Shown one piece after another: positions 20,144-31,309 of a DNA stretch of 33,785 nucleotides (the stretch's first letter is position 1; every line of letters starts with the position of its first letter). Origin of the DNA: Frankiales bacterium. GTDB taxonomy: Bacteria > Actinomycetota > Actinomycetes > Mycobacteriales > SCTD01. The notes under the pieces are model-generated. The model worked only from the letters and a program-made list of their open reading frames with translations. It was not told the origin of the DNA and did no database searches. Position numbers and translations under genes: made by a program. The DNA is taken from contig JAOPWP010000016.1 in the NCBI GenBank assembly GCA_025965615.1, forward strand, positions 1 through 33,785, in the 5' to 3' direction.

Positions 20144-20185
20144 CGGGGCCGGCAGCTAGCGGGGTCGGCAGCTAGCGGGGTCGGC
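20138..20185. repeat. Three tandem 16-bp units (agctagcggggYcggc) at the convergent junction of the AI-2E gene and ffh
   Basis: 20138 agctagcggggccggc / 20154 agctagcggggtcggc / 20170 agctagcggggtcggc; each unit carries GCTAGC. Confidence 0.95.
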
Positions 20186-21776
20186 GGAGCCCGAACGGGT
20201 CCGGGCCCGAACCCCCGCGGGACGGTCCCGGGGGCAGCCCCGCGCCAGGCGTGCTCCCCGGGAGCTGCAGCCCCTGGGGCAGTGCGCTCGGCAGGCCCTT
20301 CGGCAGACCTGCCGGCGGGCCCGCGCCCTGACCCGGCGGGAGCGCCTGGACCCTGCTCGGCCCGCCCCCGGCGCGTCCCGGACCCTTCTTGCCCTTCTTG
20401 CCCTGCGCGCCCTTCTTGCCCGAGCGCTGTGCCTTGCGCCCGGCCCCGGGCATGCCCGGCATGCCCATGCCGGCCATGCCACCCATCTGCTTCATCATCT
20501 TCTGGGCGTCGTAGAACCGGTCGACCAGGTTGTTCACCTCGGTGACCGACGTGCCCGACCCCTTGGCGATGCGGAGCCGGCGCGAGGCGTTCAGGACCTT
20601 GGGCGTGTGCCGCTCCTGGGGGGTCATCGACCGGATGATCGCGGCGATCCGATCGATGTCGGAGTCCTTGACCTGGTCGAGGGCCTCCTTCATCTGGCCC
20701 ATGCCCGGGAGCATGCCGAGCAGGCTGGTGATCGAACCCATCTTCTTGACCTGGACCATCTGCTCGAGGAAGTCCTCGAGGTCGAAGTCCTCCCCGCTCT
20801 GGAGCTTGCCGGCCATGCGCTCGGCCTGGTCGGCGTCGAAGTGCTGCTCCGCCTGCTCGATCAGGGTGAGCACGTCGCCCATGCCGAGGATCCGCGAGGC
20901 CATGCGCTCGGGGTGGAAGACGTCGAAGTCGCTGAGCTTCTCGCCGGTCGAGGCGAACAGGATGGGCTGGCCGGTCAGGTGCCGTACGGACAGGGCTGCC
21001 CCACCCCGGGCGTCGCCGTCGAGCTTGGTGAGCACGACGCCGGTGAAGCCGACGCCCTCCTGGAAGGCCTGGGCGGTGACCACGGCGTCCTGGCCGATCA
21101 TCGCGTCGACGACGAACAGCACCTCGTCGGGCTGCACGGCGTCGCGGATGTCGGCGGCCTGGCGCATGAGCTCGGCGTCGATGCCGAGCCGTCCGGCGGT
21201 GTCGACGACGACCACGTCGTGGTTCATCCGCCGCGCGTGCTCGACGCCCGTACGGGCCGCCTCCACCGGGTCGCCGACGCCGCTGCCGGCGAAGGGGGCG
21301 AAGACGTCGACCCCGGCCTGACCGCCGACCACCTGGAGCTGCTGCACCGCGCTCGGGCGCTGCAGGTCGCAGGCGACGAGCAGCGGGACGTGCCCCTGCG
21401 CCTTCAGGTGCATCGCGAGCTTGCCGGCCAGCGTCGTCTTTCCGGCGCCCTGCAGGCCGGCCAGCATGACCACCGTCGGCCCGGTCTTGGCGTGGCGCAG
21501 CAGCCGCGTCTGGCCGCCGAGGATCGTGATGAGCTCCTCGTTCACGATCTTGACGACCTGCTGCGCCGGGTTCAGCGCCTGGCTGACCTCCGACCCGCGG
21601 GCCCGCTCCTTCACCGCCGCGATGAACGCCTTGACGACGGGCAGCGCGACGTCGGCCTCGAGCAGCGCGATGCGGATCTCGCGGGCGGTGGCGTCGATGT
21701 CGGCGTCGGACAGCCGTCCCTTCCCGCGCAGGGAGGTGAACACCTTGTCGAGCCGGTCGGACAGCGTGTCGAACAT
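20172..21776 (-). CDS. ffh: Signal recognition particle protein Ffh
   Basis: MLAGLQGAGKTTLAGKLAMHLKAQG, VVVDTAGRLGIDAELM, LTKLDGDARGGAALSVRHLTGQPILFASTGEKLSDFDVF; Met-rich M domain MMKQMGGMAGMGMPGMPG; long Lys then Pro/Gly tail. Confidence 0.97.
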   Translation of the reverse strand: MFDTLSDRLDKVFTSLRGKGRLSDADIDATAREIRIALLEADVALPVVKAFIAAVKERARGSEVSQALNPAQQVVKIVNEELITILGGQTRLLRHAKTGPTVVMLAGLQGAGKTTLAGKLAMHLKAQGHVPLLVACDLQRPSAVQQLQVVGGQAGVDVFAPFAGSGVGDPVEAARTGVEHARRMNHDVVVVDTAGRLGIDAELMRQAADIRDAVQPDEVLFVVDAMIGQDAVVTAQAFQEGVGFTGVVLTKLDGDARGGAALSVRHLTGQPILFASTGEKLSDFDVFHPERMASRILGMGDVLTLIEQAEQHFDADQAERMAGKLQSGEDFDLEDFLEQMVQVKKMGSITSLLGMLPGMGQMKEALDQVKDSDIDRIAAIIRSMTPQERHTPKVLNASRRLRIAKGSGTSVTEVNNLVDRFYDAQKMMKQMGGMAGMGMPGMPGAGRKAQRSGKKGAQGKKGKKGPGRAGGGPSRVQALPPGQGAGPPAGLPKGLPSALPQGLQLPGSTPGAGLPPGPSRGGSGPDPFGLRRPR

Positions 21777-21946: not shown

Positions 21947-22600
21947 GTGACGCGGGACCGAGGCAGGACGCACCCGCGCCTGCGGCAGCCCTCCCGGCTC
22001 GGCGCCGCCGGCGTCCTGGCTGCGGTGACGCTGAGCACGCCCTTCCTGGCTCTGCCCGCGGCGGCAGCGGACACGCCGACGATCAACTGCGACACCGTGT
22101 CGAGGTCCTCCTCGGACTGGCAGAAGTGCACGAGCCTGGTCGGTACGGCGAAGTGCGTGTGGAACAACGGGAACGGCACCTACACGCTGGCCATGGGATT
22201 CCAGAACCCGACCGACGCCAACCTGTACGCCAAGATCCCGGTCAACGGCTCCCGCACCATCAACAGCTTCACCGCGACCGGCGGCTCGGCGGGCAACCCC
22301 GGCCACCTGGCCCTGTTCCCCCCCGGCACCTACACCACAGCGTTCACGGTCACGTGGTCGCCGACGTCCAGCTCGGACCCGGTGACCTGGACCCTCGTCG
22401 ACGACGTGAAGGCCTGGAACCGCAGGCACACCCCGTGCGCGACCAAGCCGGTCCCGGTCGTGGGCAGTGCTGCGGGCCTGGCGCTGGGCGCCCTCGGGGT
22501 GACCGCCCTGCTCGGCCTGGCCTCGGCCCGCAGGAACCGTCTCGTCGCTGCCCTCAGGCGCCTTCCGGTCGTCGGGAGAGCGGGGCCCCGCGCCTCGTAG
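21947..22600 (+). CDS. Secreted/surface protein with signal peptide and PEP-CTERM-like C-terminal TM-basic segment
   Basis: Signal peptide RLGAAGVLAAVTLSTPFLALPAAAADT; four Cys in ectodomain; C-terminus TKPVPVVGSAAGLALGALGVTALLGLASARRNR...; GTG 21947 preceded by AGGAGGAGGG. Confidence 0.75.
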   Translation: MTRDRGRTHPRLRQPSRLGAAGVLAAVTLSTPFLALPAAAADTPTINCDTVSRSSSDWQKCTSLVGTAKCVWNNGNGTYTLAMGFQNPTDANLYAKIPVNGSRTINSFTATGGSAGNPGHLALFPPGTYTTAFTVTWSPTSSSDPVTWTLVDDVKAWNRRHTPCATKPVPVVGSAAGLALGALGVTALLGLASARRNRLVAALRRLPVVGRAGPRAS

Positions 22601-22617
22601 CGGCCGATCAGGCCGCT
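22599..22617. terminator. 7-bp inverted repeat overlapping convergent stop codons
   Basis: AGCGGCC-gatca-GGCCGCT; contains the TAG end of 21947..22600 and the TGA of 22608..23330. Confidence 0.5.
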
Positions 22618-23330
22618 GGCGCCAGCAGGCGGTCCACGGCGTCGGCCAGCGTGACCGCGGAGAACCAGGGCGGGCAGGGGCCGTCCGGGGCGTCGACGTA
22701 CTCGCCGGTCCTCACCCGGACGCTGGGCAGTCCTGCTGCCTGCGCTCCCGCGCAGTCCTTGGCCGGCCGGTCCCCGACGTGCACAGCAGCGGCCGGGCTG
22801 ACACCGATCCGGCGCAGCGCCTCCACGAACGCGGCCGGGTGCGGCTTGCGCACGGCGCGCCCTCCGAGCTCGTCGCTGATGACGACGGTGTCGACGAGCC
22901 GTTCGACCCCCAGGGCGGCGACCTTCGCCCGCTGCACGGTCGGGTTGCCGTCCGTGACGACGGCGAGGAGCAGTCCGTGGGCCCGCAGGCGCCGGAGGGC
23001 GTCCTCCGCACCGGGGTAGTAGGGCAGGACCTCAGGGGCGTGCCCGGCGAAGGCCCCCACCAGCTCGGGCACCAGCGCCAGGTCGGCGCCCACCAGGCCG
23101 AGGGCCGCGTCGATGATGCCGCCCCGGTCACTGCCACGGGCGGCGGTCTCCTGCAGCGCCGCCAGCAGGGCTGCGACCGGCACCCCGCGCCGGCCTCCCG
23201 CCTCCGCCACGCGGTGCCAGGCGCCTGCGAGCCAGCTCGCCTGCGGGAAGAGCGTGTCGTCCAGGTCCAGGGTGACCGCGCGGATCGGCGGCCGTGCGCC
23301 ACCGGACGACGGCAGGCGCCCGCCCGTCAT
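22608..23330 (-). CDS. HAD family hydrolase
   Basis: VTLDLDDTLFPQ (motif I DxDxT), VVTDGNPTVQRAKV, KPHPAAFVEALRRIGVSPAAAVHVGDRPAKDCAGAQAAG. Confidence 0.92.
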   Translation of the reverse strand: MTGGRLPSSGGARPPIRAVTLDLDDTLFPQASWLAGAWHRVAEAGGRRGVPVAALLAALQETAARGSDRGGIIDAALGLVGADLALVPELVGAFAGHAPEVLPYYPGAEDALRRLRAHGLLLAVVTDGNPTVQRAKVAALGVERLVDTVVISDELGGRAVRKPHPAAFVEALRRIGVSPAAAVHVGDRPAKDCAGAQAAGLPSVRVRTGEYVDAPDGPCPPWFSAVTLADAVDRLLAPAA

Positions 23331-24481
23331 CCGGGGCCGACAGCACGCAGCAGTCCGGCGGGCGTACTCCCCAGAGCGGGCTCGGTCGGCGCCAGCAGTC
23401 GCCGGATGCCCGGCTCGGCCAGCACGTCGCTCACCTGCCGTGCCGTGTCACCCGTCCCGTACGGGCACGCGAGCCCGGCGACGCGCTCGAGGACGGCAGG
23501 CGTGGTGAGCGCCCGGACGGCGTCGAGGACGGCGTCCGCCGCCATCCCGGTGAGGAGCACGGCACCCGAGTGCACCCCCTCCCACCGGGGCGTGGTGTGG
23601 CGCATCACGACGCTCGGGACCCCGAACCACGCCGCTTCCTCCTGCAGGCCACCGCTGTCGGTGACGACGACCCGGGAGGAGGCGAGCGCCCGCAGCAGCT
23701 CCTCGTAGGGGAGCGGTTCGCACACGAGGACGCCCGCGGCTCCGGAGACCTCCTCGAGCAGCCCCGCCCGGGTCAGCCGGTCCCGGGTCCTCGGGTGCAG
23801 GGGGAAGGTGACCGGTCCGTGCTCGGCGCCGAGCCTGCGGACCAGGTCGACCAGTTCGAGCAGTCGCCCCGGGTCGTCGACGTTCGTCGCTCGATGAGCG
23901 GTCAGCAGCACACCGGCCCGCTCGCCGACCGGCCGCACCGCGACACCGGAGTGCACGACCGCGTCGATGACGGGGTTCCCGACCACTCGTACCCGCTCAG
24001 CAGGGACCCCGTCGTCTGCGAGGAACCGGGCGGCGAGGGCCGTCGGCGCGAAGTGCACCGTGGCGAGGGCGACCATCATCCGGCGGTTGACCTCCTCGAC
24101 CGAACGGGGGTTGAACGAGCGCAGCCCGGCCTCCAGGTGCAGCACGCCGATCCCGCGGCTCCGGGCCGCCATCGCCACCAGCGGAGCCGTGTAGGTGTCG
24201 CCGAGGACGAGGACCGCGTCAGCCGGGTGCTGGGCGACGTCGTCGAAGGCCGCCGCGAGCAGCGAGCCCAGCCGGTCGCCCTCGCTCCCGCGCAGCTGCC
24301 ACGCCGCGTCGGGACGGATCCTGGCCTCGTCGAACAGGTCGCCGTACATGCGGGCGTCGACGTGCTGGCCGGTGGCGATGCAGCGCACCGCGTGACCGTC
24401 CTCGATCAGCGCCCGGACGACCGGCGCGAGCTTGATGACCTCGGGGCGGGTGCCGACGGGCACGGTCAGGCGGAGCGTCAC
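23327..24481 (-). CDS. UDP-N-acetylglucosamine 2-epimerase (non-hydrolysing) family
   Basis: VGTRPEVIKLAPVVRAL, VLGDTYTAPLVA, HLEAGLRSFNPRSVEEVNRRM, VVTDSGGLQEEAAWFGVPSVVMRHTT. Confidence 0.88.
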   Translation of the reverse strand: MTLRLTVPVGTRPEVIKLAPVVRALIEDGHAVRCIATGQHVDARMYGDLFDEARIRPDAAWQLRGSEGDRLGSLLAAAFDDVAQHPADAVLVLGDTYTAPLVAMAARSRGIGVLHLEAGLRSFNPRSVEEVNRRMMVALATVHFAPTALAARFLADDGVPAERVRVVGNPVIDAVVHSGVAVRPVGERAGVLLTAHRATNVDDPGRLLELVDLVRRLGAEHGPVTFPLHPRTRDRLTRAGLLEEVSGAAGVLVCEPLPYEELLRALASSRVVVTDSGGLQEEAAWFGVPSVVMRHTTPRWEGVHSGAVLLTGMAADAVLDAVRALTTPAVLERVAGLACPYGTGDTARQVSDVLAEPGIRRLLAPTEPALGSTPAGLLRAVGPG

Positions 24482-25983
24482 TGCTCGATGATCTCGCTGA
24501 AGTAGCGCATCATGCGGACGCCAGGACGAGCCACGAGCCGCTCGGGGCGCATGGGCAGCCCCATGATCGCGCGCAGGTGCTCCTCGACGAGGTCCGCGCC
24601 TGCCGCCAGGCTCAGGGGGAGGCCGCCGGAGAACCGGGGGTTGACCTCGTGGACGGTCACCGTGCCGTCGTCAGCGACGAAGCCCTGCACGTTGGCCGGT
24701 CCGAGCAGCCCGACGGCCTTGAGCACCAGGCCGGACACGTGCTCCACCTCGGCGGACTCGAAGGTCTCGCCCTTCACCGAGATGCCCGCCTTCGTGGCCA
24801 GGCGCCAGCGGGGCACCGCGCCGACGAGGACGCCCGACGGGTCCACCAGCGCGTCGCAGGTGAACTCCCGGCCCGTCAGCCGGGTCTGCACGATCGGGTC
24901 GGGCACCGCCGCGAGCGCCGCCTTGAGCTGTACGCGGTTGGTGCAGAGGACGACGTCGCGGGAGCCCCGTCCGTACCTCGGCTTCACGATCCACGGTCCG
25001 CGGCCCTCTGGGAGCTCGGCCAAGGTCGTGCTCGGCACGGGCAGCCCGGCCGCCACGGTCGTCTCGTGGAACGCCCACTTGTCGGTGCACCGCCGGACGG
25101 CGTCGGCGTCCGGGAGCAGCGTGCGCACACCGGCCTCGTCGAGGAAGGCCTTGGCCGCGATCAGGGCGGGGTACTCCTCCGCGACCGTGCAGATGATCGC
25201 CTGGACGTTGCTCACGGTCGATGCACGCACCAGGGCCGCGACGTACACCGGGTCCGTGCACACGGGCAGGACGTGCGACTCGTGCCCGAGCCGCAGGCCC
25301 GCGGCGAGGGGGTCGGCGTCCGCCGCGATGACGTAGTGGCCGCGCTCGCGGAGGGCCTGGATGACGCTGACCCCGGCGGCCCCGCCGGCACCGGTCACGA
25401 GGACGCGCGTCTGCCCGAGGGCATCCGGATCGTCGACTGCCGGATGGTGACCGAGCGCCCCGGAGTTCTCGGGGACGGCCGCGGAGTGGGTGTCGGTCTT
25501 GCGCTGGAACTTCCCCGAGCGCTCCGGGTCCAGGGAGGGGACGACGGCCACGCCCGCGACGCCGGCGAGCAGCGGCGGCCCGACGGGAGCGGCTGGGCGC
25601 AGCTCGGGGTGGCGGTCGATGAACGCGCGGGCCCACAGCCGCAGCTCCACGACGGCCGCCGTCGACGCGGGTTCCCACTGGCGTGCGGCGACGGTACGGG
25701 TGACCGCGCGGAGCACGGCGGGGTCGTCCTCCGAGTGGACGACGCGCAGCAGGGCCTTCGCGTTGGTGGCGAGTCCCACCTCGCCGGCGTGGGCCACCGC
25801 GTCTGCACGCACGAGGGGGTCGTCGCTGCGCAGGGCCGACCGCAGGACGGCCCGGATGCGCACGGCCCGGCTCGTCCGCCAGGCCACGGCCAGCAGCAGG
25901 ACCGCGCCGCCGACTGCCAGCAGCCAGTCGGCCGACAGACCCAGGCCGGTCTGTTGTGCGGCGAGGCCCGCGGAAGTGGTCAT
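24478..25983 (-). CDS. TM segment + HEAT-like region + ATP-grasp (CarB-like) fusion protein
   Basis: N-terminal TM (ADWLLAVGGAVLLLAVAWR), HEAT-like helices (SDDPLVRADAVAHAGEVGLATNAKALLRVVHSEDDPAVLRAVTRTV), Rossmann TRVLVTGAGGAAGVSVIQAL, ATP-grasp WIVKPRYGRGSRDVVL...VHEVNPRFSGGLPLSLAAGAD. Confidence 0.85.
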   Translation of the reverse strand: MTTSAGLAAQQTGLGLSADWLLAVGGAVLLLAVAWRTSRAVRIRAVLRSALRSDDPLVRADAVAHAGEVGLATNAKALLRVVHSEDDPAVLRAVTRTVAARQWEPASTAAVVELRLWARAFIDRHPELRPAAPVGPPLLAGVAGVAVVPSLDPERSGKFQRKTDTHSAAVPENSGALGHHPAVDDPDALGQTRVLVTGAGGAAGVSVIQALRERGHYVIAADADPLAAGLRLGHESHVLPVCTDPVYVAALVRASTVSNVQAIICTVAEEYPALIAAKAFLDEAGVRTLLPDADAVRRCTDKWAFHETTVAAGLPVPSTTLAELPEGRGPWIVKPRYGRGSRDVVLCTNRVQLKAALAAVPDPIVQTRLTGREFTCDALVDPSGVLVGAVPRWRLATKAGISVKGETFESAEVEHVSGLVLKAVGLLGPANVQGFVADDGTVTVHEVNPRFSGGLPLSLAAGADLVEEHLRAIMGLPMRPERLVARPGVRMMRYFSEIIEQ

Positions 25984-26029
25984 GGCGATCGATCGGATGA
26001 TCTCGGGAGGACCTTGAGACGACGGGCGC

Positions 26030-26566
26030 TCACAGGACGTCGCTGGTGCGCGCCGCCCGCGGAATCCGGGCCGAGGCGCTCGGGAGCAGCAGGTACAGCA
26101 TGAGCAGGAAGCCGCACAGGGTGTAGGCGAGTCCGAACACCGTCCCGACCCAGTCGTGCAGCAGGACCAGGCCGCCCGGGCCGAACTCGAGTCCGCCCCA
26201 GAGGGACAACGCGATCCGGGCCACGTTGCAGGACAGGACGAAGGTCGCGGCGACGCAGAAGGCCGCAGCCCTGCGGGGCACCGGTCCCCTGAGCACGCAC
26301 AAGGCGATGGCGCCGAGCGCCAGGATCGCGACGAGCGAGGAGCAGAAGGGGGTCAGGACCGCCCGGAAGGGCTCCTCCACCGGCGGCAGCACCTGGAACA
26401 CGTGTCCGGGGAGCACCGACACGTTCCCCCCGAACGCCCCGAACAGGGCGAGCACCGCGTTCTCCTCGAGCGTGCGCAGTGGGCCGTTGAGCAGGCGGAA
26501 CCCTCCGAGAGCGAGCCCGACGCTGAGGGCGAGCGCCAGCAGGACGCGCACCCGCCGCTCGGTCAC
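26030..26566 (-). CDS. Exosortase/archaeosortase-family transpeptidase-like membrane protein
   Basis: 178-aa multi-pass protein with ordered Cys-Arg-His signature: PFCSSLVAILALG (C75), RRAAAF...CNVARIALSLWGG (R117), GPGGLVLLHDWVGTVFGL (H137). GTG at 26566 overlaps the GT stop by 4 bp (GTGA). Confidence 0.8.
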   Translation of the reverse strand: MTERRVRVLLALALSVGLALGGFRLLNGPLRTLEENAVLALFGAFGGNVSVLPGHVFQVLPPVEEPFRAVLTPFCSSLVAILALGAIALCVLRGPVPRRAAAFCVAATFVLSCNVARIALSLWGGLEFGPGGLVLLHDWVGTVFGLAYTLCGFLLMLYLLLPSASARIPRAARTSDVL

Positions 26567-28008
26567 CGGGACCCGGTCGAGACGTCCAGGTCGACCCGCT
26601 CGGGCAGCTGCCGCCGCTCCGGCAGCGCCGACCACGACGATCGCGCGGTCTTGGCCCAGGAGTAGGGCCGTCCGAGCACACCTTCGATCCAGGCCCGCGT
26701 GCAGACGAGCATGAAGACGAAGAACAGGGGCGTCATCAGCACCATGGACACCGCGGCCCGCCGGGGGGCACGCCCCACCAGCAGGCCCACGGCGAGCTCG
26801 CAGAAGGGCCCGGCGAACAGCAGCGCGGCCAGCGGCAGCATCTCGAAGACGGTGATGGACGGGCCGATGCCGACCACGCGCAGCACGGCGCTGAGCAGGG
26901 AGATCGCGCAGAGCACGGGCACGTGGTAGACGAGCAGGAACATGATCGTCTCCAGCTTGCTCGCCCAGCTGAGGTGCGGTGACAGCAGCACGGCCTTGCG
27001 GTAGTCCCGCCACGCCTGCTGGTGCCCGCGGGCCCAGCGGTACCTCTGGGTCTTGAAGCGACGGAGGGTGGTGGCCCCCTCCTCGGTGTCGACGGCCATG
27101 ATGTCGTAGCGGATCGTGCCGCCGGTCAGCAGGACCCGGAGGGTCAGGTCGGTGTCCTCCGTGACGCTGGCCGGGTTCCAGCCACCGAGCTCGCGCAGCG
27201 TCGAGGCGCGGACGGCGCAGTTCGCCCCGCCGTAGGCCGGCAGCTCGAACAGGGCCTGCCGCCCGTACTCGTTGACGATGTAGCCGGAGAAGTAGTCGAT
27301 GGCGATGGACCGAGCGAGCCTGGCCTCCACGGAGTTGCGGATGACGCACCGGCCCTGCACCGCATCGACCCGGGGGTCCTGGAAGTGCCGGACGAGGCAG
27401 CCGATGACGTTGCGCCGCGGGATGTGGTCGGCGTCGAAGACGACGACGACCTCGCCCCGCGCGAGCTCGGCAGCGTCGTTGAGGGCGCCCGACTTCCCGC
27501 CGCCGGCACCCGGCAGACGGTGCAGCACGCGGATGTGGGACTCCGAGACGGTCAGCTCGTCCAGCAGCGCGCCCGTGCCGTCGGTCGAGCCGTCGTCCAC
27601 CAGGATGATCTCGAGCCGCGACCGCGGGTAGTGCAGGGCGACCAGGCCCTGGACCAGGGCCCTCGCGACGAGGGCCTCGTCGTGGCAGGCGACGAGCACG
27701 GAGACGTTCGGCTGGTACTGCAGGTCCACGTCGACGCGGTCGTACAGGTCGTCCCCCGCCCACCGCACCGCCGCAGCGGCGAAGGCCACGTGGCGCAGGA
27801 AGAAGGCGAGGAAGGCCAGGTTGATCAGGACCGTCGCCCCGACGAGGACCGAGCCGATGCCGAAGGCGGCCACGGCGACCAGGGCCGCACCGCCCAGGAC
27901 CAGGAACGTCCACGGGGCGCCCTCGGGCCGACCGCGCTGACCGCTGGGCAGCGCGGCCGGGCCCCTCAGCGGAGGGGGCAGCGGAGGCTGGGCAACGCTG
28001 GGGATCAC
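26563..28008 (-). CDS. Processive family-2 glycosyltransferase (membrane polysaccharide synthase-like)
   Basis: VSVLVACHDEALVARALVQGL, ILVDDGSTDGTG, VVVFDADHIPRRNV, SVTEDTDLTLRVL, QRYRW (QxxRW), N- and C-terminal TM segments. GTG at 28008 overlaps the PIG-L stop. Confidence 0.93.
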   Translation of the reverse strand: MIPSVAQPPLPPPLRGPAALPSGQRGRPEGAPWTFLVLGGAALVAVAAFGIGSVLVGATVLINLAFLAFFLRHVAFAAAAVRWAGDDLYDRVDVDLQYQPNVSVLVACHDEALVARALVQGLVALHYPRSRLEIILVDDGSTDGTGALLDELTVSESHIRVLHRLPGAGGGKSGALNDAAELARGEVVVVFDADHIPRRNVIGCLVRHFQDPRVDAVQGRCVIRNSVEARLARSIAIDYFSGYIVNEYGRQALFELPAYGGANCAVRASTLRELGGWNPASVTEDTDLTLRVLLTGGTIRYDIMAVDTEEGATTLRRFKTQRYRWARGHQQAWRDYRKAVLLSPHLSWASKLETIMFLLVYHVPVLCAISLLSAVLRVVGIGPSITVFEMLPLAALLFAGPFCELAVGLLVGRAPRRAAVSMVLMTPLFFVFMLVCTRAWIEGVLGRPYSWAKTARSSWSALPERRQLPERVDLDVSTGSR

Positions 28009-28703
28009 CGGCTCAGGGTGCTGACGGAGGCCAGGTGCTCGAGCGGATCGGCTTCCGGTGCGCGCTCGACGAAGGCGTTGTCCGCCTTCGCCGGACGCAC
28101 GATGTCCCAGACGAAGCGCGTCGTCTCGAAGGGCTCGGCGTAGCCGATCCGGGCCCGGCTGCCCCAGTACCGGCAGCCGGCCTCGACGGCTTCCAGGTCG
28201 ACCATCGCGCACTGGGTGACCTGCGACCAGTGGGCCTCGAGCGCCGCGAGCTTGCCGCGCATCGTGCTCTCGACGTCGACGAAGACCGACGGCGCGAAGG
28301 TCGTGGTCGAGGGCGACTGGTAGTAGAGGACCCGTGCGGTGCGACGGGAGGCCGCGTGGGCCGACTGCGAGGTCGCGACGTGGTCCTGGTGGGTGTCTGC
28401 GGGTGCGTGGACGTAGACGATGTCGGCCCCGGTGCTGCGCACTGCGGCGTCCAGGACCGCGACGGACGCCCGGCCCGCCGGGATCTCGTTGTCGGGGAAG
28501 CCGCCCCAGAGCAGCTGCGCGCCGATGATCCGGGCAGCGTGCTCCTGCTCCTGCGCGCGGGACACGACGCCCTGGGGACCGTGCTCCACTTCGCTCATCA
28601 CCAGCATGGTGACCTCGTCGCCCACCTCGACGTGGCGCAGGAGGGCGCCAGCGCAGCCGAGCTCGATGTCATCCGGGTGCGCGCCCACGGCCAGGACCCT
28701 CAC
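28005..28703 (-). CDS. PIG-L family N-acetyl sugar deacetylase
   Basis: VLAVGAHPDDIELGCAGALLRHV (AHPDD) and APADTHQDHVATSQ (HxxH); GTG start with GGAGGAG upstream. Confidence 0.93.
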   Translation of the reverse strand: MRVLAVGAHPDDIELGCAGALLRHVEVGDEVTMLVMSEVEHGPQGVVSRAQEQEHAARIIGAQLLWGGFPDNEIPAGRASVAVLDAAVRSTGADIVYVHAPADTHQDHVATSQSAHAASRRTARVLYYQSPSTTTFAPSVFVDVESTMRGKLAALEAHWSQVTQCAMVDLEAVEAGCRYWGSRARIGYAEPFETTRFVWDIVRPAKADNAFVERAPEADPLEHLASVSTLSR

Positions 28704-28966: not shown

Positions 28967-31309
28967 TCAGCCAGGCTCGTTCGACGGCCGGGCGGCCGCC
29001 AGGACCCGCCGCTCGACCTCGTCGCGCAGGGCCGGGTCCGTGAGGGGACCACCGTCGGGGCCGACTACGTAGAAGGCGTCCACGACGTCGTCCCCCAGCG
29101 TCGAGACGTGGGCCGTCCGGACGTCGAGCCCGCAGTCGTCGAGCGCGGCCGTCAGGCGGTGCAGGACCCCGAGGGAGTCGGGGGCACGGACCTCGACGAC
29201 CGTGGCGGTGTGCGAGGCGTCGTCCACGAGCCGGACGACCGGCGGAGCGGCGCGAGCAAGGCGCGCGTACGCGGCTTCGCGAGTGGCCAGGCGCTCCTGG
29301 ACCGGGAGGCCTCCCCCGATCGCACGCAGCAGGTCGGTCTGGACGACCGACCAGTCCGGCCACGCCCCGAACCGGGGAGCGACCCGGAACACCAGCAGGC
29401 CGGTCTCCTGCGTCGAGCTGGCCCACGCCGAGCGCACGTCCAGGCGGTGCAGTGCCAGCACCCCCGCGGTCACGGCGAGCAGCCCCTGCCGGTCCGGCGC
29501 GACGACCATGACCTCGTCCTCGTGGTGCCCGAGCGCCGGCCCGCCCCGGGCCACCAGCTCGGACTGCCACTCGGCGAGCGGGGCCGGCGCAGGGACCGGT
29601 GTGCCCGACAGCAGCGACCGCGTCCGGTCGGCCAGCTCGCAGACGAGCCGGGCCTTCCACGGGCTCCAGGCGGCCGGACCGGTGGCGAGGGAGTCGGCCT
29701 CGGTGAGGGCCTCGAGCAGCTCGAGCACCTCTTGCGAGCCGACCTGGTCAGCGACGGCAGCTGCCGTCGCAGGGTCAGCCAGGTCGCGACGGGTGGCGAC
29801 GTCGGGCAGCAGGAGGTGGTGCTGCACCATGCGCACCAGCACCTCGACGTCCGCCCCGCGCAGACCCATCCGCGGACCGATCTCCGCGACCATCTCCGCA
29901 CCCACGTCGCTGTGGTCCCCGGGACGGCCCTTGCCGATGTCGTGCAGGAGGGCGCCGATCAGCAGCAGGTCCGGCCGGGCGACCTGCCGGGTGAGTGCGG
30001 CGGCCTCCGCGGCCGTCTCGACGAGGTGCCGATCCACGGTGAAGCGGTGGAAGCTGTTGCGCTGCGGGCGGCTCCGGACCTCGTCCCACTCGGGGAAGAG
30101 GCCGACGAGCAGCCCGGCCTGGTCCAGGTGCTCGAAGACGGGGACCGCTCCCGGGCCGGCCGCCAGCAGGCTGACCAGCTCGTCGAGTGCCGCGCGCGGC
30201 CACGGCTGCGGCAGCGGCGGGCAGGTGCGAGCGAGCCGGTCGAGGGTGGCTGGAGCGACGGGAAGGCCGGCGTGGGCCGCGGCGGATGCGACCCGCAGGA
30301 CGAGCACCGGGTCCGACGCCGGGTCGGCGGCGCGGGCCAGGACCACCTCTCCGTCCTGCGACACGACGTCGTCGGCGAGCGGGGTGCGGACAGGGCCGCG
30401 ACCTGCACCCGGCCGGCCGGCACCGGGGAGTCGGAACCCGAGCCGGCGCCGGGGTGCTGAGGCCGCGACCCGGCGCCAGGTGGTCTCCGCCGCGTAGACG
30501 ATGGTCCGGGCCGCGGTGCTGACCGCCGCCATCAGGGCGTCCGCGTCGTCGTGGCCCAGCGCCGCTGCCACGGCGTCCTGCTCCTGCAGGAGGAGCCGGT
30601 CGACCGTGCTGCGTCCCGAGCTGCCGGTGCGCCGGTGCAGCTCACCCCGTACGTCCAGCAGGAGCTCGTGCGCGGACAGGACCGCCGCGCCGGGCGGGTC
30701 GGCGCGCTGACTGGCCGCGACCGCCTGGAGAGCGTGCACGTCGCGCAGGCCGCCCCTCGCGCTCTTCAGGTCGGGCTCGAGCAGGAACGCCACCTCGCCG
30801 TGCTCGCGGGCCCGCTGCTCCCCCGCCTCGCGCAGCTCGGGCAGGCGTCGCTCCGCGTCGCGGCGCCAGGCCGCTCGCGCTGCGCTGAGCAGCTCGGCGC
30901 TGAGGGCGGCCTCGCCGGCGACGTGGCGCGCGTCGAGCAGGCCGAGCGCTGCCTTCAGGTCCTCACGCGCCACGCCGACGGCCTCGTCGACGGTGCGGAC
31001 CGAGTGGTCGAGCCCCACGGAGGCGTCCCAGACCGGGTACCAGACCTGATCGGCCAGGGCCGCGACGTCCGTGCGCCTGCCGTCGTGGACCAGCACGAGG
31101 TCGAGGTCGGACCCGGCGGCCACCTCGCGGCGCCCCAGGCCCCCGACCGCGACCAGCGCAGCCCCGGGGCCGGGATCGCCCAGCAGCGCCGAGAGCCAGC
31201 CGTCGTAGAGGTCGACCAGCCCCGCCCGCAGAGCCGCGCCGGTCAGGCTGGACGCGAGCAGGGACGCACGGGCGGCCTTGACCTGCGCAGCGCTGGGCGG
31301 GGCGGTCAC
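28967..31309 (-). CDS. glnD: [Protein-PII] uridylyl/adenylyltransferase GlnD
   Basis: Nucleotidyltransferase VAVGGLGRREVAAGSDLDLVLVHDG, HD domain LLHDIGKGRPGDHSDVGAEM, two C-terminal ACT domains. Confidence 0.95.
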   Translation of the reverse strand: MTAPPSAAQVKAARASLLASSLTGAALRAGLVDLYDGWLSALLGDPGPGAALVAVGGLGRREVAAGSDLDLVLVHDGRRTDVAALADQVWYPVWDASVGLDHSVRTVDEAVGVAREDLKAALGLLDARHVAGEAALSAELLSAARAAWRRDAERRLPELREAGEQRAREHGEVAFLLEPDLKSARGGLRDVHALQAVAASQRADPPGAAVLSAHELLLDVRGELHRRTGSSGRSTVDRLLLQEQDAVAAALGHDDADALMAAVSTAARTIVYAAETTWRRVAASAPRRRLGFRLPGAGRPGAGRGPVRTPLADDVVSQDGEVVLARAADPASDPVLVLRVASAAAHAGLPVAPATLDRLARTCPPLPQPWPRAALDELVSLLAAGPGAVPVFEHLDQAGLLVGLFPEWDEVRSRPQRNSFHRFTVDRHLVETAAEAAALTRQVARPDLLLIGALLHDIGKGRPGDHSDVGAEMVAEIGPRMGLRGADVEVLVRMVQHHLLLPDVATRRDLADPATAAAVADQVGSQEVLELLEALTEADSLATGPAAWSPWKARLVCELADRTRSLLSGTPVPAPAPLAEWQSELVARGGPALGHHEDEVMVVAPDRQGLLAVTAGVLALHRLDVRSAWASSTQETGLLVFRVAPRFGAWPDWSVVQTDLLRAIGGGLPVQERLATREAAYARLARAAPPVVRLVDDASHTATVVEVRAPDSLGVLHRLTAALDDCGLDVRTAHVSTLGDDVVDAFYVVGPDGGPLTDPALRDEVERRVLAAARPSNEPG

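Follow-up and report, generated by a model that had tools for sequence, protein, structure and literature searches.

A predicted cargo-specific exosortase system with amino-sugar genes and a HEAT-ATP-grasp partner in actinobacteria

Gene content of the exosortase locus

We analysed a stretch of 33,785 nucleotides from a Frankiales bacterium (assembly GCA_025965615.1, contig JAOPWP010000016.1), which is referred to below as the window. A block of six co-directional genes occupies positions 22608-28703 of its minus strand, between glnD and ffh, and encodes a PIG-L de-N-acetylase, a membrane glycosyltransferase of family 2 (GT2), an exosortase, a HEAT-repeat ATP-grasp protein, the epimerase WecB and a HAD hydrolase. 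All six genes and their placement had been described in the original prediction, and this layout is confirmed in full. Its account of the junctions holds for the 4-bp overlaps, found at four of the five junctions, and needs a small correction for the gap between the exosortase and ATP-grasp genes, which is 46 bp long and not 47 bp. Missing from that account was a neighbouring gene on the opposite strand (21947-22600), which is convergent with the HAD gene, ends 7 bp from it and encodes a candidate exosortase cargo. Taken together, these genes almost certainly constitute a cargo-specific exosortase system, with the following features:

28005..28703, minus strand: PIG-L/LmbE-type de-N-acetylase, 232 amino acids, first gene of the operon (PF02585)
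26563..28008, minus strand: membrane GT2 glycosyltransferase, 481 amino acids (PF00535/PF13641; DxD, TEDTD and QxxRW motifs)
26030..26566, minus strand: predicted exosortase-family transpeptidase, 178 amino acids (TIGR04178)
24478..25983, minus strand: putative HEAT-repeat and ATP-grasp ligase, 501 amino acids (PF15632, PF02655)
23327..24481, minus strand: WecB, non-hydrolysing UDP-GlcNAc 2-epimerase, 384 amino acids (TIGR00236, PF02350)
22608..23330, minus strand: HAD-IA family phosphatase-like hydrolase, 240 amino acids (PF00702, TIGR01509, TIGR01549)
21947..22600, plus strand: cargo, a secreted beta-sandwich protein, 217 amino acids (hidden Markov model, HMM, from other loci)
22436..22540, plus strand: tripartite sorting signal inside the cargo (alignment of 23 proteins)

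Exosortase and cargo

The assignment of the third gene to the exosortases withstands comparison with the NCBIfam superfamily model TIGR04178 (35.3 bits, cut-off 23), and a scan of the whole genome with this model returns the window protein as the sole match (37 bits). Detection depends on TIGR04178, since the protein falls below the cut-off of the Pfam model PF09721 (16.2 bits against 25.7) and a search of its own genome with the latter gives no match; PF09721 models the longer EpsH type with eight transmembrane (TM) helices. The predicted catalytic residues C75, R117 and H137, as well as E34, N114 and the DWVG motif, are invariant in an alignment of 25 exosortases of this kind. The XrtS model NF033767 is matched weakly by all 25, at 39.5 bits for the window protein (cut-off 145) and 21-51 bits for the others for which bit scores were read, with a best E-value of 1.9e-13 over the 25. 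XrtP is matched weakly by five of the 25, not including the window protein, which also has no match to TIGR03110 (XrtG); a search of solved structures with the exosortase found nothing. The window enzyme belongs to the exosortase superfamily but not to the curated XrtS, XrtG or XrtP, and neither this exosortase subtype nor its cargo family is yet named by Pfam or NCBIfam.

The cargo gene starts with GTG behind an AGGAGG sequence, and its product has a predicted signal peptide and a tail in which a cysteine, the segment KPVPVVGSAAG, a hydrophobic helix and an RRNR cluster follow one another. It is recovered at E = 1.2e-11 by an HMM built from 22 cargo proteins of other loci, with the window row left out, and is the only significant homologue of this family in its own genome. 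Cys196, P202 and G205 are invariant in the 23-protein alignment. The cargo proteins have in common a pair of cysteines, residues of Trp and Gly and a [LMV]Pxx(G)xxxG tail, and the Pro-Glu-Pro motif that precedes the TM helix in PEP-CTERM proteins is absent. No significant match was obtained in a fold search with the cargo model (best E = 0.014), which shows only an immunoglobulin-like beta sandwich.

The pairing of exosortase and cargo is well established from sequence comparisons. Comparable cargo genes adjoin 41 of the 50 loci collected (see below). In equal lengths of DNA, 45 candidate cargo open reading frames (ORFs) are found no more than 1.5 kb from the operon and 4 at larger distances, a ratio that is descriptive, the ORF filter having been written after candidates were seen; an earlier, stricter regular expression (15 near, 3 elsewhere) missed obvious cases and was replaced. 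A fairer measure is given by the HMM built without the window and by the genome-wide HMM profile of 115 Geodermatophilaceae: 38 genomes have both the exosortase (E < 1e-30) and the cargo family, one has the exosortase alone, none has the cargo alone and 76 have neither (Fisher p = 1e-29, without correction for shared ancestry). The single genome with only the exosortase is fragmented and 84% complete. Since 13 of the 58 listed cargo matches are remote from the operon, the pairing is not a matter of adjacency alone. The closest relative of the window operon, in an Acidothermus metagenome-assembled genome (MAG; L021), has no adjacent cargo gene and two homologues elsewhere, one of them ending in KPVPVSGNATA with the same KPVPVxG motif. 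Three genomes that have only other, weakly matching exosortases (G546, G547 and G558) contain no cargo.

At some loci the tail is attached to other proteins. A choice-of-anchor P protein (choice_anch_P, NF040603) is the neighbouring cargo in Pseudonocardia and Catenulispora, and in Acidimicrobiia (L046 and L066) the cargo position is taken by an FN3-domain protein; these have unrelated ectodomains and the same tail plan, for example VPTGAVGGVLL, a helix and RRRRR. In another genome (G163, L083:5345-7686) the stop codon of a cargo-family gene is overlapped by 4 bp by the gene for a different, longer exosortase (TIGR04178, 39.4 bits), which suggests that exosortases of more than one type act on this cargo family.

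Several minor observations concern the same genes. The longer exosortase of L083 is followed by a glycosyltransferase-like ORF. One MAG encodes a second cargo-like protein (L067:5245-5985, plus strand; tail QVPIGEIGGMVF...RRRSRR) about 2.6 kb from the operon. Several remote cargo homologues in Geodermatophilaceae (e.g. G075, G515 and G560) carry an in-frame stop and may be decayed paralogues or matches spanning two neighbouring genes.

HEAT-ATP-grasp partner and amino-sugar genes

The HEAT-ATP-grasp protein, singled out in the original prediction as the unusual member of the operon, turns out to be no oddity of one genome: it is a conserved partner of the exosortase that is fused to it in other genomes. 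It scores over the cut-offs of PF15632 and PF02655, and the ATP-site residues K334, E446 and N448 are invariant in the alignment, in agreement with membership of the ATP-grasp superfamily. In the AlphaFold2 model (pLDDT 82), a complete ATP-grasp fold is accompanied by a helical array of HEAT-like type and a long hydrophobic helix at the N-terminus, with 2pn1 as the nearest solved structure (TM-score 0.84 by target length), followed by biotin carboxylases, PurK, PylC and L-amino-acid ligases.

Four arrangements of the three domains were observed. An exosortase next to a HEAT-ATP-grasp protein, as in the window, is found in 10 rows of the comparison, an exosortase-HEAT fusion with a separate ATP-grasp in 25 and three separate genes in 7, whereas six genomes (L036, L043, L057, L059, L062 and L063) encode a single exosortase-HEAT-ATP-grasp protein, one reading of which is 693 amino acids long; one row has no detectable HEAT. 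Domain rearrangement of this kind is classically taken to indicate proteins that function together in a complex. Since the exosortase, HEAT and ATP-grasp parts occur in every arrangement from separate to fully fused, they probably act as one unit.

PIG-L exceeds the cut-off of PF02585 (71 bits, cut-off 28.2) and stays below that of the bacillithiol deacetylase BshB1 (TIGR04001; 92 bits, cut-off 182.5); its HPDD and HxDH-type metal motifs are at least 96% conserved in 46 rows. The glycosyltransferase is over the cut-offs of PF00535/PF13641, and the QxxRW motif named in the original prediction is present as QRYRW; together with DxD and TEDTD it is at least 96% conserved. The best NCBIfam matches of GT2 are the poly-GlcNAc synthase PgaC/IcaA (TIGR03937; 126.4 bits, cut-off 422.3), the XrtP-associated glycosyltransferase (NF053846; 82.6 bits, cut-off 520) and the XrtG-associated one (TIGR03111; 43 bits, cut-off 364). 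Because GT2 falls under every polymer-synthase equivalog cut-off, a polymer is no likelier to be the product than an anchor linked to lipid or protein. WecB is supported by both TIGR00236 (227.5 bits, cut-off 210.15) and PF02350 (267 bits), and the HAD protein by PF00702 (89 bits) as well as TIGR01509 and TIGR01549 (both over cut-off), with conserved catalytic DLDDT, K and GDRP.

Distribution and origin

The original prediction had left it to comparative genomics whether the six genes co-occur beyond this genome. A scan of contigs from ~85,000 species recovered 49 further loci, all titled as actinobacteria, in which the same genes recur, for the most part with their order kept; as the scan relied on a single peptide pattern, [VI]L[FL]HDWVG, it does not prove absence elsewhere. 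Carriers include Geodermatophilus, Blastococcus, Modestobacter, Goekera, Trujillonella, Catenulispora, Pseudonocardia, Micromonospora, Pilimelia, Acidothermus, and Acidimicrobiia and other MAGs. In the resulting 50 rows, including the window, GT2, HEAT and ATP-grasp are each present in 49, PIG-L in 46 (in the same direction), WecB in 45 and HAD in 43, several of the absences being due to contig ends. This recurrence of the gene set is far beyond chance. Three of the loci coincide with genomes of the other samples (L035 = G075, L063 = G080, L065 = G050).

The system is rare in the phylum and common in one family. Five matches came from 397 genomes sampled evenly across the phylum; two of them (G304 and G264) are strong and new and carry the gene set, interrupted in G264 by a contig end, and the exosortase occurs in 39 of the 115 Geodermatophilaceae genomes at E < 1e-30. 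Among 80 relatives of the window genome the exosortase was found in three, all of the same taxonomic order; these three have the other operon genes as well, with the gene order kept apart from the position of PIG-L in two of them. The exosortase is absent from the 8 same-genus and 15 same-family genomes searched. The nearest relative of the operon is that of the Acidothermus MAG (exosortase 60% and GT2 67-70% identical), which is sister to the window in the GT2 tree (SH-aLRT 100%) and sits elsewhere, between ORFs read by eye as rho and rpmE/prfA. Because every congener and same-family genome searched lacks the operon, and nothing lies between glnD and ffh in three congeners, the window operon was probably gained. 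Horizontal acquisition accounts most simply for these sequence comparisons, although repeated loss may have occurred instead, and the gene set appears to be mobile and scattered among soil actinobacteria.

Proposed mechanism and alternative explanations

The sequences themselves show what the parts are, that exosortase and cargo form a pair, that the exosortase is linked to HEAT and ATP-grasp, and that the system is horizontally patchy. We propose a self-contained system that would display a dedicated cargo protein on the actinobacterial surface, and in the following scheme we infer the cleavage site, the acceptor, the substrate of the ATP-grasp and the role of the HAD protein. The cargo would be exported and kept in the membrane via its C-terminal helix, and the exosortase would form a Cys thioester in cleaving it at the [LV]Pxx(G) motif and then pass the new C-terminus to an amine. 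WecB would produce UDP-N-acetylmannosamine (UDP-ManNAc), the membrane GT2 would put an N-acetylhexosamine onto a lipid or glycan, and PIG-L would strip the acetyl group, freeing the amine. The HEAT-ATP-grasp protein, either bound to the exosortase or part of the same polypeptide, would extend or activate this amine, most likely by addition of an amino acid, and HAD would presumably take phosphate off an intermediate. As a whole, a model in which the cleaved cargo is received by a deacetylated, possibly aminoacylated amino sugar has, in our view, an even chance of being right, and we are less confident of the aminoacylation as such. We put forward only tentatively its most specific form, a Gram-positive anchor resembling glycosylphosphatidylinositol (GPI), in which the exosortase and the attached ATP-grasp ligase would join the cargo C-terminus to a de-N-acetylated, aminoacylated mannosamine-type sugar. 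If true, proteins would here be anchored covalently to glycans in a way that forms a class of its own, and the exosortase acceptor would gain a chemical identity.

Several points weigh against this scheme. The fold matches of the ATP-grasp include carboxylases and PurK besides amino-acid ligases, so that, by its fold, the protein may either ligate an amino acid or carboxylate. GT2 resembles processive synthases, so that a free polymer may be its product. Four Acidimicrobiia-type MAGs (L046, L060, L066 and L068) have a more distant ATP-grasp and no adjacent WecB or HAD, so that the core does not depend on ManNAc. Exosortase chemistry is extracytoplasmic, whereas PIG-L and ATP-grasp presumably act in the cytoplasm; a flippase would therefore be required, and none is encoded in the operon. 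Finally, the literature contained no experiment on any member of the system that we could find.

A first alternative is that the exosortase processes the cargo while the glycan genes make a separate, partly deacetylated and N-modified exopolysaccharide similar to poly-N-acetylglucosamine, the cargo is not covalently joined to it, and clustering reflects co-expression in a biofilm or matrix. The similarity of GT2 to PgaC/IcaA (126 bits) with the QxxRW motif retained is in line with this possibility, as is the correlation of PEP-CTERM/EpsH systems with exopolysaccharide genes (PMC1569441). We nevertheless consider it unlikely: it leaves the fusion and translational linkage of ATP-grasp to the exosortase unexplained, the operon has no gene for Wzx/Wzy, export or a secreted CE4 deacetylase, and GT2 is under all polymer-synthase cut-offs. 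Of the original prediction, which envisaged a partly deacetylated amino-sugar surface polymer coupled to exosortase processing of a surface protein, the coupling of an exosortase to amino-sugar genes and surface-protein processing is supported, and the polymer is a conjecture.

It is still less probable that phosphatidylethanolamine or another common amine of the membrane serves as the acceptor, with the glycan and ATP-grasp genes glycosylating or modifying the cargo or lipid after transfer. Archaetidylethanolamine has been proposed for the archaeosortase ArtA (PMC7157517), and a group containing glycerophosphoethanolamine for rhombosortase (cited in PMC7468200); however, the conserved set has no PssA/PssD-like gene, and PIG-L and ATP-grasp are near-fixed alongside the exosortase. 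A small-molecule glycoside pathway of the mycothiol/bacillithiol kind (glycosyltransferase, de-N-acetylase and ligase), to which the exosortase-like protein would belong only as a chance partner in the membrane, is very improbable, because, although PIG-L is nearest to BshB1 and ATP-grasp could serve as the ligase, the BshB1 cut-off is missed, GT2 is of the membrane synthase type, the exosortase catalytic residues are invariant and the secreted cargo tracks the exosortase.

Comparison with known systems

In its gene content, the proposed amino-sugar anchoring system is similar to the machinery by which archaeosortase and the sortase of the type IX secretion system (T9SS) are supplied with amine acceptors. 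The PEP-CTERM/exosortase systems of Gram-negative bacteria (EpsH, XrtA) share with it a superfamily enzyme with Cys, Arg and His, a cargo with a signal peptide, short C-terminal motif, TM helix and basic tail, and glycan genes, including in some loci a deacetylase and an amino-acid-transfer-type enzyme near the exosortase (PMC7468200). In contrast, the window system is actinobacterial and has no PEP motif, PIG-L replaces the CE4 deacetylase, ATP-grasp stands where PEP-CTERM loci have a FemAB/VimA-type transferase, and the genome has one cargo-family homologue beside the operon rather than many dispersed cargo proteins. XrtS (NF033767), XrtP and XrtG are likewise short exosortases of Gram-positive lineages, and the glycosyltransferases associated with XrtP and XrtG are relatives of GT2; the window system differs by the addition of PIG-L, ATP-grasp, WecB and HAD.

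The archaeosortase ArtA adjoins genes proposed to make its amine lipid acceptor, and a Cys thioester resolved by an amine has been proposed for it (PMC7157517). The placement of a sorting enzyme beside presumed acceptor-making genes, PssA/PssD in Haloferax and Methanosarcina, is thus similar, but amino-sugar genes take the place of lipid-headgroup genes in the window set. T9SS attaches the C-terminus of its cargo to a sugar that has lost an acetyl group and gained a serine or glycine; the authors who report this describe the bacterial exosortase acceptor as an unidentified compound, suggest a similar one for exosortases and note a deacetylase and a VimA-like protein near them (PMC7468200). The Wbp/Vim linking-sugar pathway of Porphyromonas and Tannerella follows the same logic, in which an amino sugar is deacetylated, an amino acid is added and a sortase joins the cargo C-terminus, and T. 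forsythia T9SS uses a mannuronic-type sugar. The sortase PorU is non-homologous, VimE is of the CE4 type and VimA of the GNAT type, so that the likeness is an analogy only. In eukaryotic GPI anchoring a PIG-L-family deacetylase prepares the glycan, and a Cys transamidase removes a hydrophobic tail and puts an amine anchor in its place; this is again only an analogy, as no inositol, mannosyl or ethanolamine steps were found in the window system.

The gene set points to a possible anchor identity for bacterial exosortases and extends actinobacterial exosortase-type sorting beyond LPXTG sortases. It forms a compact cluster of seven genes, often with its own cargo and in some carriers with a ligase-fused exosortase, and is available in named type strains of Geodermatophilus, Blastococcus, Modestobacter, Micromonospora, Pilimelia, Pseudonocardia and Catenulispora. 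In the literature searched, the coverage of which was partial, nothing was found that combines exosortase with Geodermatophilus or PIG-L, and one paper on exosortase and ATP-grasp merely cites both words.

Genomic context of the operon

Two genes outside the system flank the operon and its cargo gene:

28967..31309, minus strand: glnD, flanking the insertion on the left; identity to congeners ~70%, followed there by ffh or by other genes
20172..21776, minus strand: ffh, right flank of the insertion, 82-90% identical in congeners

The PIG-L gene starts 263 bp after glnD and is preceded by a sequence resembling a ribosome-binding site, GGAGGAGG. The term 'inserted', used in the original prediction, proves apt: glnD and ffh are 34-100 bp apart in three congeners (G002, G006 and G007) and are split by other genes in two more (G003 and G008). 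The glnD-ffh interval may be a site of repeated insertion. The G+C content of the operon (73.6%) equals that of the window (73.4%), and composition is therefore no mark of foreign origin. The window genome is a MAG of 282 contigs with an estimated contamination of 3.5%; a foreign contig is argued against by both operon flanks, which belong to the genus. Scans for a sigma-70-type promoter, a terminator and Rfam matches found none and are uninformative in DNA of 73% GC, and the PADLOC scan for anti-phage defence gave nothing except a weak generic hydrolase match. In two congeners the interval between glnD and ffh is filled by unrelated genes (L071:5616-9129 and L072:4539-8339).

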